Part shown: positions 48,777 to 55,717 of the stretch, one piece after another
Layout: each line of letters starts with the position of its first letter
How positions within the stretch are numbered: position 1 is the stretch's first letter
Assembly: GCA_026014705.1 (NCBI GenBank)
Contig: JAOZHU010000029.1
Span: 1 to 60,777 of the forward strand
Source of the DNA: Candidatus Bathyarchaeota archaeon
Lineage (GTDB): Archaea > Thermoproteota > Bathyarchaeia > Bathyarchaeales > Bathycorpusculaceae
Direction of reading: 5' to 3'
DNA: 60,777 bases
Translations under genes and position numbers: made by a program
The notes under the pieces: model-generated
What the model saw: only the letters and a program-made list of their open reading frames with translations
The model's database searches: none
Told to the model about the DNA's origin: nothing

Positions 48777-49277
48777 TCAATTCATGTGGCTGGGGCAGCG
48801 TTTATTTTTGTTTCCCATTTTAACTGCTTTTTCCGCGAGTCTCTTTGTTTCTTTATATGACCGTGCACAATGCTTACAGCAGAAGGCGGTTTCTTTTCCG
48901 TCTATGCTTTCTCGGTAGGCGCCTTCGTAGACCTTGCAGCCGCAGTGAGCGCACACGTCGAGGCTGGGTTCAATGGCAATTGCGACTAGCTCGGCAAAGC
49001 GTTTGAAAAGCCCGATGCAGAGTTCTCTGCCTTCCCCCGTTAGTTCAAACACTTTTTTCTCCTTTTCGCCTACAGGTTTTACCGTATGCTTCACTAAGCC
49101 TTTCTCTTCTAACTGTTGCAGAAATGGGTAGACTAAGCTTGGGCTTACTTCTTTTTTCACTCTTTTCTTGAAGCGGCTGAGTATTCGGTAGCCGTGTGCA
49201 GGTCCTTCGTAAAGAATTGTGAGTATGTAGAAGCGTGAGAAATCTGAAACCAGCTCGTGGAGGCTTTCCGCGGTCAT
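48777..49277 (-). CDS. PadR-type regulator with C-terminal TRASH-like metal-binding domain
   Basis: The first 100 residues are a PadR winged helix (FSRFYILTILYEGPAHGYRI, then PSLVYPFLQQLEEKGLVKH). The tail, from about residue 107, holds a cysteine array (CAHCGCKVYEG, then FCCKHCARSYKE) of the TRASH pattern used by archaeal copper or heavy-metal responses. A metal-sensing repressor is therefore likely. It is divergent from the cupin gene, by about 170 bases, which may be its target. The metal cannot be told. Confidence 0.82.
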   Translation of the reverse strand: MTAESLHELVSDFSRFYILTILYEGPAHGYRILSRFKKRVKKEVSPSLVYPFLQQLEEKGLVKHTVKPVGEKEKKVFELTGEGRELCIGLFKRFAELVAIAIEPSLDVCAHCGCKVYEGAYRESIDGKETAFCCKHCARSYKETKRLAEKAVKMGNKNKRCPSHMN

Positions 49278-49444
49278 GTCTTATCCAAGCAGAGGCTTAC
49301 CGCGGCATAGCGTTATAAATGTTTTTGAGATATATCTTCAAGCGACACTTGTCTCTGCTTCAGTACAGCGCATCGCTCAAAAACAGATAATTAATCATAA
49401 GCTTATTAGCAAACACGCGCAACAAATAGCAAACAAGTTGGAAA

Positions 49445-49798
49445 GTGAAACTACAAATGAAAATATTCAACTACAATACGGTTCAAGCAAAAGATGCAGG
49501 CGAAGGCACATCAAAAGTAGCTGTACGTTGGCTCATCACCAAAGAATTAGTCGCTGAGAACTTTGCGATGCGTCTCTTCGAAATTGAAGCCGGTGGCTAC
49601 AGCCCGCTGCACACGCATCCTTGGGAGCACGAAGTTTTCATACTCGAAGGTGAAGGACAAGTTTTTGACGGCGAAATAGCAACGGCAATCAAAGCAGGTG
49701 ACGTTGTCTTCGTGCCCTCGGGTGAGCAACACCAGTTCAAGAACAACAGCAAAGAAACTCTAAAGTTCCTCTGTCTCATACCCTGCGTCAAGAAGTGA
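49445..49798 (+). CDS. Cupin-domain protein
   Basis: A 117-residue single cupin barrel. The two cupin motifs are visible: YSPLHTHPWEHEVFILEGEG (His, His, Glu) and DVVFVPSGEQHQFKNNS (His). These ligands would bind a divalent metal. The protein could be a small-molecule-binding or sugar-modifying enzyme. It faces the PadR/TRASH regulator gene and may be under its control. The exact activity is unknown. Confidence 0.88.
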   Translation: MKLQMKIFNYNTVQAKDAGEGTSKVAVRWLITKELVAENFAMRLFEIEAGGYSPLHTHPWEHEVFILEGEGQVFDGEIATAIKAGDVVFVPSGEQHQFKNNSKETLKFLCLIPCVKK

Positions 49799-49885
49799 TT
49801 TATATCATTGTATCGTGGAATTTTTCACTAACAAATATATCCTAGTGGTTACATCTAACTCTGGGTTCCACGGGGGTAATGCCCT

Positions 49886-51268
49886 TTGAAGTACGATGTA
49901 ATAATCGTTGGCGCAGGTCCAGCCGGCATATTCTCAGCATTAGAACTAACAGAAAAGAATCACCTAAGCGTATTACTGCTTGATAGGGGCTTAGACATAG
50001 ACCAACGCAAATGCCCCTCAAGCCGCGGATTCGACTGCCAACACTGCGAGCCCTGCTCTGTTCTCTCAGGTTGGGGCGGCGCAGGCGCCTACAGTGACGG
50101 CAAACTAACATTATCCACTGAAGTAGGCGGGTGGCTGAACCAGTACGTTTCGCACAACGAACTTGAGGCGCTCATTAAATATGTTGACGGCGTTTACCTA
50201 GAATACGGCGCAGACGAGCATGTCTATGGCGGAGATGCTGAGAAAGTAGATGAAATCGAACGCAAGGCTTCGTTGGCAGGGTTGAAACTAGTCAGACAGA
50301 GAATCCGTCATATGGGCACAGAGAAATGTGCTGAAACCCTGCGGCGCATGCGCCGAGAACTCAACAGCAAAATCACGTTTCAAACCAAAACCGATGTGAA
50401 AAACCTAATCACAGAGAATCACATGGTTAAAGGCGTGGAAACCGCCAGTGGCGAAAAATACACAGGCAAATACGTTATAATCGCTCCCGGAAGAGGCGGC
50501 GCTGAATGGCTTCAAACAGAAGCCCAACTCCACGGCTTGAGAACTGTGAATAACCCTGTCGATGTAGGCGTAAGAGTGGAAGTTTTAGCCTCCGTGATGG
50601 AAGAACTTACCAAGGCGCTTTACGAGCCTAAACTTGTGTATTATTCAAAGGCGTTTGATGATCAAGTTCGCACCTTCTGTGTTTCACCCTACGGCGAGGT
50701 TACAACAGAATCTTACGATGGCGTCTTGACCGTTAACGGGCAAAGCTATGCGGAGAGAAAAACAAAAAACACAAACTTCGCCATTCTTGTAAGCACGTCG
50801 TTTACAGAGCCCTTTAGGGAACCAATAGCTTACGGGAAATATGTTGCCCGCCTTTCAAATCTGCTCAGCGGCGGAGTTATGGTGCAGCGCCTAGGCGACC
50901 TAGTGTCTGGACGACGCTCAACACCAGAACGCCTCGCACGAAGCGTGGTCACGCCAACATTGAAGAACGCTACGCCCGGCGACTTAAGCTTCGTTCTGCC
51001 CTACCGATACTTGGCGGACATACGTGAGATGCTTCAAGCCTTGGATACCATCGCGCCTGGGGTTCACTCGAGAGATACGCTACTCTACGGAATAGAAGTG
51101 AAGTTTTACTCCTCGCACCTAGAATTGAACAATGTCTTGGAAACTCGGATTCGTAACATGTTTACAATAGGTGACGGCGCCGGCGTCACTCGCGGCTTAA
51201 TTCAAGCGTCCGCCTCGGGCGTGATAGTGGCCAGAGAAATTATGAAAAGAGAAAAACTGAAGGCATAG
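49886..51268 (+). CDS. FAD-dependent dehydrogenase (COG2509 type)
   Basis: A 460-residue flavoprotein. The N-terminal FAD motif DVIIVGAGPAGIFSALEL (residues 4-21) is followed by a cysteine-rich loop (CPSSRGFDCQHCEPC) and GWGGAGAYSDGKL, typical of the group, and by a C-terminal GDGAGVTRGLIQAS FAD-contact motif. Members may be oxidoreductases working on geranylgeranyl or other unknown substrates; the real substrate is not known. The start is TTG at 49886. It precedes the zinc-ribbon gene by four bases and may share its transcript. Confidence 0.85.
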   Translation: MKYDVIIVGAGPAGIFSALELTEKNHLSVLLLDRGLDIDQRKCPSSRGFDCQHCEPCSVLSGWGGAGAYSDGKLTLSTEVGGWLNQYVSHNELEALIKYVDGVYLEYGADEHVYGGDAEKVDEIERKASLAGLKLVRQRIRHMGTEKCAETLRRMRRELNSKITFQTKTDVKNLITENHMVKGVETASGEKYTGKYVIIAPGRGGAEWLQTEAQLHGLRTVNNPVDVGVRVEVLASVMEELTKALYEPKLVYYSKAFDDQVRTFCVSPYGEVTTESYDGVLTVNGQSYAERKTKNTNFAILVSTSFTEPFREPIAYGKYVARLSNLLSGGVMVQRLGDLVSGRRSTPERLARSVVTPTLKNATPGDLSFVLPYRYLADIREMLQALDTIAPGVHSRDTLLYGIEVKFYSSHLELNNVLETRIRNMFTIGDGAGVTRGLIQASASGVIVAREIMKREKLKA

Positions 51269-51272
51269 CCCA

Positions 51273-52025
51273 ATGGTTATAGCGCATGCCATAAAATGCT
51301 CGCATTGCGGGGCACCTGTGGAGTTTACTTCTGGCGAGATAACTGCTACTTGCAAATATTGCGGCTTTACAACTGTCGTGGAGACTGGGCAAGTTTTCAC
51401 TTTTGAGCATTCGCTGTTGCTGAACAAGTTTGATGAAACGCAAATCGAAACGCCCATACGCGATTGGATGAACTCAGGTTTTTTGAAGCCGCCTGACCTT
51501 GCCAAGAAATCAAAGATCACGGAGAAGAATCTGGTTTATTTGCCTTTCTGGGTGGTTTCTCTGCTAGCTAAAACCGTTTATAAGGGCATATTTGAACGTA
51601 TAACACCGCCCGTGATGAAAGAGGGAACACTTGAGAAAGAGTACAACTGGCTTGTGCTGGCAAGAATTGCAACTGATTTTCCAACGAGAGAATACCGCGT
51701 TCCTTTAGAAGGAAAAATTCCTTACGACTTTAGGAAAATCGAGAGATTCGCAAAGATTTTGAACAACGAAATCAGCGAAGACGGAGCGGTTACTTTGGCG
51801 AAGCAGCAAATTGAAGCGCATCACCGCTTTCTCCTGCAGAAAGAAGTAGATAAACTCATAGAAGTCAATAATGCCTTTAGTGTGAAACAAGCGGTGTATT
51901 TGCACGCGCCCTTGTGGTTTATAAAATTTGATTACAGGAATAAATGTTACCAGTTGTTAATAGACGGTGCCACAGGCACAGTTGTAAAAGGCGAAATACC
52001 GCAAAAAGGCTTCGGAATATTTTAG
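51273..52025 (+). CDS. Zinc-ribbon protein of a membrane-stress-like operon
   Basis: A 250-residue protein that begins with a single zinc ribbon (KCSHCGAPVEF, then ATCKYCGFTTVV, about residues 8-37) followed by a beta-rich globular domain with aromatic strands (YLPFWVVSLLAKTVYKGIF, LWFIKFDYRNKCYQLLIDG). Family resemblance to Bacillus YdjG, a zinc-ribbon partner of YdjI, is from the ribbon and the gene order. It is the first of four genes in the same direction. Function is inferred from this context. Confidence 0.7.
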   Translation: MVIAHAIKCSHCGAPVEFTSGEITATCKYCGFTTVVETGQVFTFEHSLLLNKFDETQIETPIRDWMNSGFLKPPDLAKKSKITEKNLVYLPFWVVSLLAKTVYKGIFERITPPVMKEGTLEKEYNWLVLARIATDFPTREYRVPLEGKIPYDFRKIERFAKILNNEISEDGAVTLAKQQIEAHHRFLLQKEVDKLIEVNNAFSVKQAVYLHAPLWFIKFDYRNKCYQLLIDGATGTVVKGEIPQKGFGIF

Positions 52026-52088
52026 GTAAAATCTTAAAAGAGAGACTCAACTCCATACTAAAATCAGCGTGCGCGCTTGAGGGATGCA

Positions 52089-52460
52089 ATGGCAAACAGC
52101 GAGAATATTTCTTCTACTGCCATGCCGTATGGCGTAGGCGCGCTCATAGTTCTTGTTGTATCCATTGGTGCCGCCGCAGTAGTTTACGGTTTGTCGCTTC
52201 TTGCCTTCAATTTATTCAGTTTTCCCACTTGGCTTTTTGGTCCCCTCGGCGTCTACACGTTAGCGTACTCGTTCATAGCGAGAAAGGGTTCAACTTACTA
52301 TTTGGTTTGGGGCAGCGTGCTGTTTGCTGTTGCCATGATATCCGCGCTTTATGCTGCGGTTAGCCCATTCGTTATATTGGGCATTCTGGCAATCGTCATA
52401 GCCATCATAGGTATTATTGCATACCAGAGGAGTAAAAAATGGGTGGAAAAGACTATTTAG
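52089..52460 (+). CDS. Small polytopic membrane protein
   Basis: A protein of about 123 residues with four hydrophobic segments (GVGALIVLVVSIGAAAVVYG, then FPTWLFGPLGVYTLAYSFI, VWGSVLFAVAMISALYAA and FVILGILAIVIAIIGIIAY) and a basic tail. The start at 52089 (MANSENIS) is favoured by GAGGGA upstream; a TTG at 52077 would add four residues. It overlaps the next gene by 22 bases. It takes the place of YdjH in the comparison with the Bacillus locus. Confidence 0.75.
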   Translation: MANSENISSTAMPYGVGALIVLVVSIGAAAVVYGLSLLAFNLFSFPTWLFGPLGVYTLAYSFIARKGSTYYLVWGSVLFAVAMISALYAAVSPFVILGILAIVIAIIGIIAYQRSKKWVEKTI

Positions 52461-52981
52461 GAAAAGTCAAGGGCGAAAGAAGCCTTCTTGAAAAAATCAT
52501 GGGCTACGTTCCGGGATACAGAGGCTACAAGGAAAAAGAACTGAGAAGAGAAAGCGACCGGCTAGTTAGAATGGAAGCTGTGAACAAGCTTAAAGCCGCC
52601 AAAACCGCTTTCCGAAGAACCTTCGCTAATCCCTCCGCTGTTCAGAAGCTTTCAAGTGACGATGTCTACAGGTTTGATACGTTCAACGCTAGGCTCGAGA
52701 GAGTTACTCAGCGCATAGACAGGGCAGTCGCGGGGTATGCTGGCATGTTCGACGCTGTCAAAGTTAAAGAAGACAAGCTTGACTCCGTTATTCAGCACGA
52801 TGTGAACGTGATAGAAAAGGCAGAGGCAGTAAAAACGGCTGTTGAAAAGGCTAACAGCATCGTTCCCGCAACAGACGAGTGGCGAACAGCGATGGATGCA
52901 CTGATATCCATGGTCGAGGAGCTTGATAGGCTGGTTGACGAACGGACAAGCCTTTTAAGGGGACTTGGAGGTGAAGCGTAA
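52439..52981 (+). CDS. Helical coiled-coil protein of the SPFH-associated operon
   Basis: A 180-residue, largely helical protein. A short N-terminal segment (LEKIMGYVPGYRGYKEKELR) is followed by long charged helices. The composition (Arg, Glu, Lys, Ala) and position next to an SPFH gene suggest a membrane-associated coiled coil comparable to the PspA partner of the bacterial locus, but no PspA signature is seen. It is translated in overlap with the genes on both sides. Confidence 0.65.
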   Translation: MGGKDYLGKVKGERSLLEKIMGYVPGYRGYKEKELRRESDRLVRMEAVNKLKAAKTAFRRTFANPSAVQKLSSDDVYRFDTFNARLERVTQRIDRAVAGYAGMFDAVKVKEDKLDSVIQHDVNVIEKAEAVKTAVEKANSIVPATDEWRTAMDALISMVEELDRLVDERTSLLRGLGGEA

Positions 52982-52982
52982 A

Positions 52983-54023
52983 ATGCCGAAAGTCATTGAG
53001 TGGGTCGGAGCCAGAGAAAGCGATATAGTTTGGAAATACCCTAATCAGGAAATAGCGTGGGGCGACAACCTAGTCGTTCACGAATACGAAGCGGCGGTTT
53101 TCTTCAGAGACGGCAAAGCTTACGATGTGTTCAGAGCAGGTCGTCACGCGTTGACAACGGCGAATTTGCCATTGCTGACGAAAATTTTCTCGAAGATTGC
53201 AGGATTCGATAAAAATCCGTTCACAGCAACCGTCGTGTTTGTTTCACTTAAGCAGTTCCAAGGAAAATTTGGCGCTCAAGGGCAAACAAAAGAGCTTGCA
53301 CCTTTGAAGTTCTTCGGGGGATTCTGGTTCAGAGTTGAGGAGCCAAACCTCTTCGTCAATGAAGTGGTAGGCGGACAAGGCGCGTTCACAACTGATGGGC
53401 TGCAAAATTTTCTCAGAGGCTACTTAAACGAGAGGCTCATTGACACTTTAAGCCAATATTCGCTCTCGGAAGTTTACGGTAAGCTTGACGAGACGAGTTT
53501 GCTTTCGAAGAACGTGCTGTTTGATGCTTTTTCGCGGATTGGACTTGAACTTATAGACATGAAATTTGAAGGAATCGACACAACTCCCGAGTGGCGTGAC
53601 AGGCTGTTCTACATTAAAACTGGAGTCAGCGGCGCAGAAGTTCTCAGGATGGAAACTGTGCAAAAATCTACTGAAAGCTTGTCTAAAAGTTCAGGAGCGG
53701 CAGTAGGCGCAGGAGCGGTAGTGCTTCCACAAATGTTCCAGCAGCCAGCAGCTCAAGCAGCACAGGTAATGGTGCTATGCCCTAAGTGTGGTTTCCAGAA
53801 TCCACAGACAACTAAGTTCTGCGGAAACTGCGGCACAGCACTGCAAGCGCCCCAACCGCAGGGAGGTATAACTTGCCCGAAGTGTAATACAGCAAACACT
53901 GCAAGCGCAAAGTTTTGTTCAAACTGTGGCAATCCGCTGCAGGTGACGGCTAAGTGCCCCGCCTGCGGCGCTGAAGTTCAGGCAGGAGCCAAGTTCTGTC
54001 CGAACTGCGGCGCCAAACTGTAA
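52983..54023 (+). CDS. SPFH-domain protein with C-terminal zinc ribbons (YdjI/virion core-like)
   Basis: A protein of about 346 residues. The first 230 residues form an SPFH-like domain (IEWVGARESDIVWKYPNQEI, GGFWFRVEEPNLFVNEVVGG, FDAFSRIGLELIDMKFEGI). An Ala-Gln linker follows, and then three double zinc ribbons (CPKCGFQNPQTTKFCGNCG, CPKCNTANTASAKFCSNCG, CPACGAEVQAGAKFCPNCG). The start at 52983 (MPKVIEWVGARES) is preferred over 52965 because GGAGGTG lies about 10 bases before it. The SPFH plus zinc-ribbon design matches Bacillus YdjI. Confidence 0.85.
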   Translation: MPKVIEWVGARESDIVWKYPNQEIAWGDNLVVHEYEAAVFFRDGKAYDVFRAGRHALTTANLPLLTKIFSKIAGFDKNPFTATVVFVSLKQFQGKFGAQGQTKELAPLKFFGGFWFRVEEPNLFVNEVVGGQGAFTTDGLQNFLRGYLNERLIDTLSQYSLSEVYGKLDETSLLSKNVLFDAFSRIGLELIDMKFEGIDTTPEWRDRLFYIKTGVSGAEVLRMETVQKSTESLSKSSGAAVGAGAVVLPQMFQQPAAQAAQVMVLCPKCGFQNPQTTKFCGNCGTALQAPQPQGGITCPKCNTANTASAKFCSNCGNPLQVTAKCPACGAEVQAGAKFCPNCGAKL

Positions 54024-54106: not shown

Positions 54107-55717
54107 ATGAGCGAGAAGTCAATCGGTCGCGGCACATGGTACGATATGATGGCTCAAAAAGTAATCACACGCGAGCGGAAGCTTGGGCGCAGTCTTGACA
54201 AGGTGAGAACCGAGATGGGGCTTGGCGCATCTGGTTTTCCGCACATTGGAAGCCTCGGCGACGCTGCCCGCTCCTACGCGGTTACTTTAGCCCTGAAGGA
54301 CATGGGCTTCAACTCTGAATTGGTTGCCTTCTGCGATGACAAAGACGGGTTGCGGAAGGTTCCTGCGGGGCTGCCGAAAACGTTGGAGAAGTATTTGGGG
54401 TTTCCCGTGTCCAGCATTCCTGACCCTTTTGGCTGTCACGAAAGCTACGGCAAACATATGAGTTCGCTGTTGCTGGAGGCTTTAGACGAATGCGGCATCC
54501 AGTATCACTATTTGTCTGCCAAAGAAGTTTACGAGAAAGGCATGTTGCTGAACGAGGTTAGAACGATACTTGCGAACGCTCAGAAAGTGGGCGAAATCGT
54601 CAAAGAAGAAGTAGGTCAAGAACGCTATACTGAGGTGCTGCCGTTCTTTCCAGTTTGCGAAAAATGCGGGCGCATCTACACCACCAAAGCTTTAGAGTAT
54701 TTTCCAAAAACGGATAAAGTGCTCTACTCCTGTGAAGGCTTAGAAATCCGAGGCAAACTCATCGCTGGTTGTGGACACAAAGGCGAAGCCGACATCGCCC
54801 GAGGCGAGGGCAAACTAAGCTGGAAGAGCGAGTTTGCGGCACGTTGGAAAGCTTTGGACATACGGTTTGAAGCCTACGGCAAAGATATCGCCGATTCAGT
54901 GCGGATAAACGACCGCATATGCCGCGAAATCCTCTGTTTCGAGCCGCCGTCCCATGCAAGGTATGAAATGTTCTTAGACAAGGGCGGAAAGAAAATCAGC
55001 AAGTCCTCAGGCAACGTTTTCACCCCACAGGTCTGGTTCCGTTATGGCTCACCTCAAGCACTGCTCTTGCTTATGCTGAAACGGTTCGTAGGTACGCGCA
55101 CGCTGGATGTTTCAGATATCCCAGTGTACATGAACGAGTTGGATCACCTTGAAGATGTATATTTTGGCAAGAAAGCGGCAAAAGACGAAAAGGAACTTAC
55201 GAAGGCTCGCGGATTATACGAGTATTGCTGGGTGCTGAAGCCGCCTGTTAAGCCAAGCGTTCATGTGCCGTATAATTTGTTGACTTTTCTAGCGAAGATG
55301 GCGCCGAAAGAATGCCCAAGCGCGTTCATAACTGAAAAACTTCAAAGCTACGGTTATCTGCAGAAGAACCAGCAGCTTGATGCTGATTTGACTATGCGTA
55401 TAGAGTACGCTTTCAATTGGATTCGCGATTTTGAAGAAATCCGCGAGAGCACAGTGACCCTTTCAAAGGAAGAAAAGAACGCTATTGCAGGACTGATTAG
55501 CGTCTTGGAAGCTGAGAATGAGCCTGAAAAGATACAGAACGCCATTTTCAACCTCGCCAAAACCAGCGGCTTATCACCGAGCAGCTTTTTCAAAACACTT
55601 TACCTGATCTTGCTGGGTGCACCGCAAGGTCCGCGGCTGGGACCGTACATACTTGTCATGGGAAAACCGAACGTCACCTCTGCCTTAAAACGCGCATTAA
55701 GCAAAAACAGCGCATAG
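54107..55717 (+). CDS. lysK: Lysyl-tRNA synthetase, class I
   Basis: Archaeal-type class I LysRS of 536 residues, which charges tRNA-Lys. The HIGH-type motif is HIGSLGD (about residue 46), and the KMSKS-type motif is KKISKSSGN (about residue 295). A zinc-like cysteine set (CEKCGRIYT and CEGLEIRGKLIAGCGHKGE) lies between. The C-terminal helical region binds the anticodon. It is a single gene. The presence of the class I rather than class II form is typical of many archaea. Confidence 0.95.
   Translation: MSEKSIGRGTWYDMMAQKVITRERKLGRSLDKVRTEMGLGASGFPHIGSLGDAARSYAVTLALKDMGFNSELVAFCDDKDGLRKVPAGLPKTLEKYLGFPVSSIPDPFGCHESYGKHMSSLLLEALDECGIQYHYLSAKEVYEKGMLLNEVRTILANAQKVGEIVKEEVGQERYTEVLPFFPVCEKCGRIYTTKALEYFPKTDKVLYSCEGLEIRGKLIAGCGHKGEADIARGEGKLSWKSEFAARWKALDIRFEAYGKDIADSVRINDRICREILCFEPPSHARYEMFLDKGGKKISKSSGNVFTPQVWFRYGSPQALLLLMLKRFVGTRTLDVSDIPVYMNELDHLEDVYFGKKAAKDEKELTKARGLYEYCWVLKPPVKPSVHVPYNLLTFLAKMAPKECPSAFITEKLQSYGYLQKNQQLDADLTMRIEYAFNWIRDFEEIRESTVTLSKEEKNAIAGLISVLEAENEPEKIQNAIFNLAKTSGLSPSSFFKTLYLILLGAPQGPRLGPYILVMGKPNVTSALKRALSKNSA

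Follow-up and report, generated by a model that had tools for sequence, protein, structure and literature searches.

SPFH proteins have mostly been studied as self-contained scaffolds or in association with PspA. In canonical members of the superfamily, a long helical segment that follows the SPFH domain closes the cage. The closest described system is that of Bacillus subtilis, where YdjI, an SPFH protein without a transmembrane segment, binds PspA, and both proteins require the membrane proteins YdjG and YdjH (PMC8581546). YdjG combines a pair of zinc ribbons with a YpeB/NTF2-like domain and a transmembrane segment, YdjH carries a TPM domain, and Toastrack proteins are known partners in phage-shock (PSP) systems (PMC11237479). 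Adaptin-type ESCRT loci of archaea also encode SPFH-coiled-coil-ZnR proteins (PMC10936438).

Gene content of the locus

We analyzed a 60,777-nucleotide stretch (hereafter the window) of the genome of a Candidatus Bathyarchaeota archaeon. A sequence-only reading had singled out four adjacent and overlapping genes as having the same set of protein types as the Bacillus ydjF-I locus. These genes (ZR, TM, CC and SPFH) and their immediate neighbors are:

49886-51268, + strand: FAD-dependent oxidoreductase (FADox), matching Pfam FAD families; a resident gene outside the CC-SPFH module
51273-52025, + strand: ZR, 250 aa, with a single N-terminal CxxC...CxxC zinc ribbon and no transmembrane segment
52089-52460, + strand: TM, 123 aa, with three hydrophobic segments by hydropathy
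52439-52981, + strand: CC, 180 aa, mainly helical, the core of the module
52983-54023, + strand: SPFH, 346 aa, Band_7_1 followed by three C-terminal four-Cys ribbons
54107-55717, + strand: class I lysyl-tRNA synthetase (LysRS), PF01921 at 355 bits; the resident downstream flank

The gene order, the common strand and all four open reading frames were confirmed, but the genes overlap only once, between TM and CC (22 bp). SPFH starts 1 nt after CC, counted from the ATG at position 52983, and a TTG at 52077 is a possible alternative start for TM. The four protein types were borne out by Pfam (ribbons and Band_7_1), by hydropathy and by the predicted structure of CC, except that the SPFH tail carries three single ribbons and not three double ones. 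Upstream of ZR, the genes for a PadR-type regulator whose C-terminal domain is TRASH-like, for a cupin and for FADox (48777-51268) are syntenic in relatives, and downstream LysRS is syntenic in relatives both with and without CC-SPFH.

The SPFH protein scores 95 bits against PF13421 (Band_7_1, gathering cut-off 24) and 60.7 bits against PF01145. The Band_7_1/SPFH domain spans approximately residues 16-203, Zn_Ribbon_1 is matched in three stretches downstream of it, and there is no transmembrane segment (hydropathy maximum 0.98). No other Band_7_1 gene was found in the window genome; the family was also detected in B. subtilis. The presence of Band_7_1 and C-terminal zinc ribbons and the lack of a transmembrane segment of its own place the predicted protein in the YdjI class. 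It shares the SPFH domain with the cages of HflK/C, prohibitin and flotillin, but these have a long C-terminal coiled coil, whereas the window protein has none and is adjoined by a separate helical gene. Even without its own coiled coil, SPFH might oligomerize alone.

No Pfam family was found above its cut-off in the CC protein of the window. CC does match the NCBIfam model NF047596 over nearly its full length (42.6 bits, E 5.6e-11), as do all 33 members of the CC alignment (best 6.8e-19). This model describes the LIMLP_15305 family of Leptospira, whose function is unknown and whose one literature mention, in a table of non-coding RNAs, is uninformative. Given that 42.6 bits falls far below the equivalog cut-off of 210 bits, CC is a distant relative of NF047596 that lies outside the family proper. 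NF047596-type genes are present in 67 of 151 genomes across Thermoproteota, and a plasmid search using a bacterial CC as query returned no match.

The predicted structure of CC comprises four long helices (residues 30-61, 73-94, 111-139 and 146-177; pLDDT 79). None of the 50 PDB matches listed for the model is significant (best E 0.12), and the sequence has only weak matches in the PDB, the best of them (E 0.0013) across a short stretch. As the model has no confident match in the PDB, the role of CC rests on gene context. Ten residues are invariant in the CC alignment (G29, Y30, E34, R37, E38, D40, R44, A96, G99 and Y100), and the invariant motifs include GYxxKE...RRExD and YGYAG, a degree of motif conservation that exceeds the needs of a generic coiled coil.

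CC and SPFH form a near-obligate gene pair

We surveyed 151 genomes of the order and detected CC in 109 (113 genes) and SPFH in 112 (118 matches). At a distance limit of 1 kb, 110 of the 113 CC genes have an SPFH neighbor and, reciprocally, 110 of the 118 SPFH matches have a CC neighbor. Eight SPFH matches are thus exceptions. One is in the near-complete genome G053, where a diverged CC was missed by the single-sequence search and recovered with a profile. In another, a ZR-like gene is inserted, and the others are mostly gene fragments, partial matches of low score or copies at contig ends. CC and SPFH are a near-obligate gene pair, far above chance adjacency.

The pairing extends well beyond this order. 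With each archaeal and bacterial species represented by a single genome, a scan identified 275 CC relatives, and SPFH lies downstream of CC in 78 of the best 80 of these 275 loci, with one intervening gene in three. Archaea among the best 80 are Bathyarchaeia, Nezhaarchaeota, Caldarchaeales, Geothermarchaeota, Brockarchaeota, Thermofilum and an Iainarchaeum, and bacteria are Chloroflexota, Acidobacteriota, Planctomycetota, Sumerlaeota and Bacillota. The system is not limited to Bathyarchaeia, the group named in the sequence-only reading; the module is widespread in archaea and in several bacterial phyla. The distance matrices of CC and SPFH are correlated across 124 pairs (Mantel r 0.85, permutation maximum 0.10), an agreement that is also expected, at least partly, from shared species history alone. 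None of 176 CC reading frames, drawn from loci that overlap, is fused to SPFH. Overall, the CC-SPFH pair is real, deeply conserved and uncharacterized, and it is more widespread than first assumed.

One genome (G044) encodes four CC-SPFH copies of different types (L033, L034, L035 and L068), which suggests subfunctions.

The small membrane protein is more narrowly distributed. It was detected in 13 of the 151 genomes, and all 14 TM genes abut CC, again well above chance; in Caldarchaeales and other Thermoproteota, homologs occur directly after SPFH. TM is thus an optional third partner, frequent in Thermoproteota, that can sit on either side of the CC-SPFH pair. Its retention with CC-SPFH in two gene orders supports a functional link, and TM is a candidate membrane anchor.

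Neighboring genes at other CC-SPFH loci

Arrestin_N-fold proteins of approximately 195 aa with C-terminal zinc ribbons are encoded beside CC-SPFH in many archaea (L061, L063, L062/L079, L078, L080/L208, L081, L089, L037, L039, L045 and L051), and fusions of the arrestin fold with ZR occur at L034, L206 and L212. Of 49 full-length Arrestin_N-ZnR genes in the order, 18 are no farther than 3 kb from CC. The window genome also has an arrestin-fold zinc-ribbon gene, away from the locus on another contig (C20:35112-35696).

At bacterial loci the extra partners are DUF2207 proteins, small transmembrane or zinc-ribbon proteins, or a Toastrack protein. In Chloroflexota (L107 and L112), CC-SPFH is preceded by a membrane protein with DUF2207 and by a protein of 173 aa with two transmembrane segments and two CxxC motifs. 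A Chloracidobacterium genome encodes a protein with a zinc ribbon and a Toastrack domain (DUF4097) between CC and SPFH (L152:5581-6891). In one Thermoproteota family (L203:6622-9516, L204 and L213), the genes after CC-SPFH encode a protein of 328 aa, one of ZR type and one with four transmembrane segments. The first of these contains two CxxC motifs and matches the MIT domain very weakly (17.6 bits, below cut-off).

The zinc-ribbon gene and the history of the locus

The association of ZR with CC is much looser. Across the order, ZR lies within 1 kb of CC in 52 of 88 cases and within 10 kb in 59 of 88. The neighborhood survey thus upheld the expectation that the genes are kept together for CC and SPFH (110 of 113) but not for ZR. 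In relatives, FADox lies directly upstream of ZR whether or not CC-SPFH is present, and six loci of the same family (L215, L221, L222, L223, L224 and L227) have the cupin-FADox-ZR-LysRS block without CC or SPFH (no cupin was detected at L224). On account of these blocks we reject ZR as an obligate subunit. Two close relatives (G111 and G130), whose CC is 70% identical, have the TM-CC-SPFH trio at one locus and ZR at another, where it still neighbors cupin-FADox-LysRS. ZR is thus a loosely linked neighbor that, in this family, is part of a resident cupin-FADox-ZR-LysRS block. The fold of ZR was modeled with low confidence (pLDDT 72, pTM 0.57), and its C-terminal part has no confident match.

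In both the CC and the SPFH trees, the window copies fall in a clade of Nezhaarchaeota/Wolframiiraptoraceae type, apart from the version of the remaining Bathyarchaeia. Yet it is this second version of CC-SPFH that sister genera of the family have at the corresponding site, between FADox-ZR and LysRS, and some other genera of the family have no CC-SPFH there. Within the family, the identity of ZR is approximately 61-75%, whereas in the same comparisons that of CC drops to approximately 30-40%. The simplest reading is that the TM-CC-SPFH trio would have replaced a CC-SPFH pair, or filled an empty site, as a unit; the alternative is differential loss of ancient copies. Under either scenario, the history of ZR differs from that of TM-CC-SPFH.

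Comparison with the Bacillus locus and alternative readings

The likeness to pspA-ydjGHI lies in the SPFH protein, which is of the YdjI class, lacks an anchor, carries C-terminal zinc ribbons and is tied to helical and small membrane proteins (PMC8581546, PMC11237479). The window locus has no PspA gene and CC has no PspA signature; ZR has one ribbon and no transmembrane segment, unlike YdjG with its two ribbons, NTF2-like domain and transmembrane segment; YdjH has a TPM domain, whereas TM, with its 123 aa and three transmembrane segments, has no Pfam TPM match; and the pairing conserved here, across archaea and bacteria, is that of CC with SPFH. Of the proposed correspondence with ydjF-I, the SPFH component stands, but ZR is not YdjG-like in its architecture, TM lacks TPM and PspA is missing.

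The sequence-only reading had regarded the four genes as one system; ZR would then be an essential subunit. Among Bathyarchaeia that carry the tier-2 version, most do have ZR ahead of CC, and ZR-type paralogs abut CC in many other archaeal lineages, but we consider this view improbable given the separate loci of the trio and ZR in G111 and G130, the position of the window ZR only 4 nt from FADox and 63 bp from TM, and its identity of approximately 61-75% to family members whose CC is only approximately 30-40% identical. Similarly improbable is that CC belongs to PspA/ESCRT-III as a strongly diverged member, a membrane remodeler recruited by SPFH and TM, which would make the locus a direct functional counterpart of pspA-ydjGHI. 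The SPFH protein is of the same kind as in Bacillus, and CC is basic (pI 9.0), helical, possibly amphipathic at its N-terminus (residues 10-20) and in the same genetic position. Moreover, PspA exceeded its cut-off in none of the 151 genomes of the order, while 9 of 14 controls, B. subtilis included, were positive, and one Acidobacteriota locus has the Toastrack protein between CC and SPFH. Against this, the profile check of the 180-residue CC that had been suggested found neither PspA (PF04012) nor Snf7 (PF03357), and both are absent among the Pfam matches listed for the 33 CC members, which are only scattered, weak and to unrelated helical families. Profile-profile comparison (hhalign) of CC with the PspA/Snf7 superfamily gave probabilities of 0.2-0.3%, but it does not discriminate, as the yardstick of two known relatives, PspA and Snf7, likewise reached only 0.2% with these shallow alignments. 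The four helices of CC are approximately 22-32 residues long, and no PspA/ESCRT-III-like structure is among the 50 PDB matches listed. True Snf7-type ESCRT-III proteins are encoded elsewhere in genomes of the order (21 of 21 genomes), and beyond the order PspA is separately encoded, at other loci, in 8 of 24 CC-bearing genomes. This last observation rules out CC as a substitute confined to PspA-less genomes; that CC takes the place of PspA without its signature is correct as to the missing PspA/Snf7 match, but CC is not simply a PspA substitute.

A different possibility is that an SPFH-CC scaffold acts in the sorting or quality control of membrane proteins, its clients, with zinc-ribbon and arrestin-fold proteins as adaptors, in an archaeal trafficking-like process and not a stress system. 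This reading, which we regard as unlikely but slightly less so than the previous two, draws on the arrestin genes near CC in 18 of 49 cases, the ZR fusions at several loci, the arrestin-fold gene elsewhere in the window genome (C20) and the SPFH-coiled-coil-ZnR proteins of adaptin-type ESCRT loci (PMC10936438). The Meth_adaptin ESCRT loci, which belong to membrane sorting in archaea, share with the window locus an SPFH protein that has a zinc ribbon (PMC10936438), but no Vps4, ESCRT-III or adaptin gene was identified at the window locus. Nor does this locus have an arrestin gene, 31 of the 49 arrestin-like genes lie away from CC, and no link to cargo or to a ubiquitin-like protein was seen.

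A proposed SPFH scaffold completed in trans

The reading we prefer, to which we assign a probability of roughly one half, is that a single peripheral-membrane scaffold contains both CC and SPFH as subunits, with TM as its membrane anchor in this lineage. Its observed basis is the gene pairing, the shared evolution, the domain content and the absence of PspA, from which we infer the complex, its recruitment to the membrane and its function. SPFH is of the short YdjI class, an SPFH domain with a zinc-ribbon tail, no transmembrane segment and no long coiled coil, and CC would supply the missing helical segment in trans, either capping the SPFH assembly or acting as its spacer. This is the most economical model for CC because SPFH lacks such a segment and a helical gene almost always adjoins it. 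Membrane recruitment would fall to TM, and the zinc ribbons may dock clients or adaptors, such as the ZR-type or arrestin-type zinc-ribbon proteins found in many relatives. The complex could then maintain or repair the membrane, or organize membrane proteins, without PspA. The scaffold model is supported by the lack of a transmembrane segment in SPFH, given that the equally anchorless YdjI of B. subtilis needs YdjG/H and binds PspA (PMC8581546). The earlier suggestion of a membrane repair or stress complex thus survives in part: a sub-membrane role for SPFH and its helical partner is our best guess, but the locus is not a one-to-one counterpart of ydjF-I.

More tentatively, and with the odds somewhat against it, CC-SPFH may be an undescribed ancient two-protein membrane machine of archaea and bacteria, in which CC would be a new-fold helical completion acting in trans and the archaeal elaboration with TM and arrestin adaptors would serve PspA-independent repair or sorting.

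Here, a YdjI-class SPFH protein is nearly always accompanied by a second, uncharacterized helical gene, in PspA-less archaea as well as in several bacterial phyla. The recurrent arrestin-fold neighbor raises a possible link to archaeal membrane-protein sorting. If the proposed complex is true, it would provide a testable role for the orphan LIMLP_15305-like family and would suggest how archaea without PspA may guard or organize their membrane.
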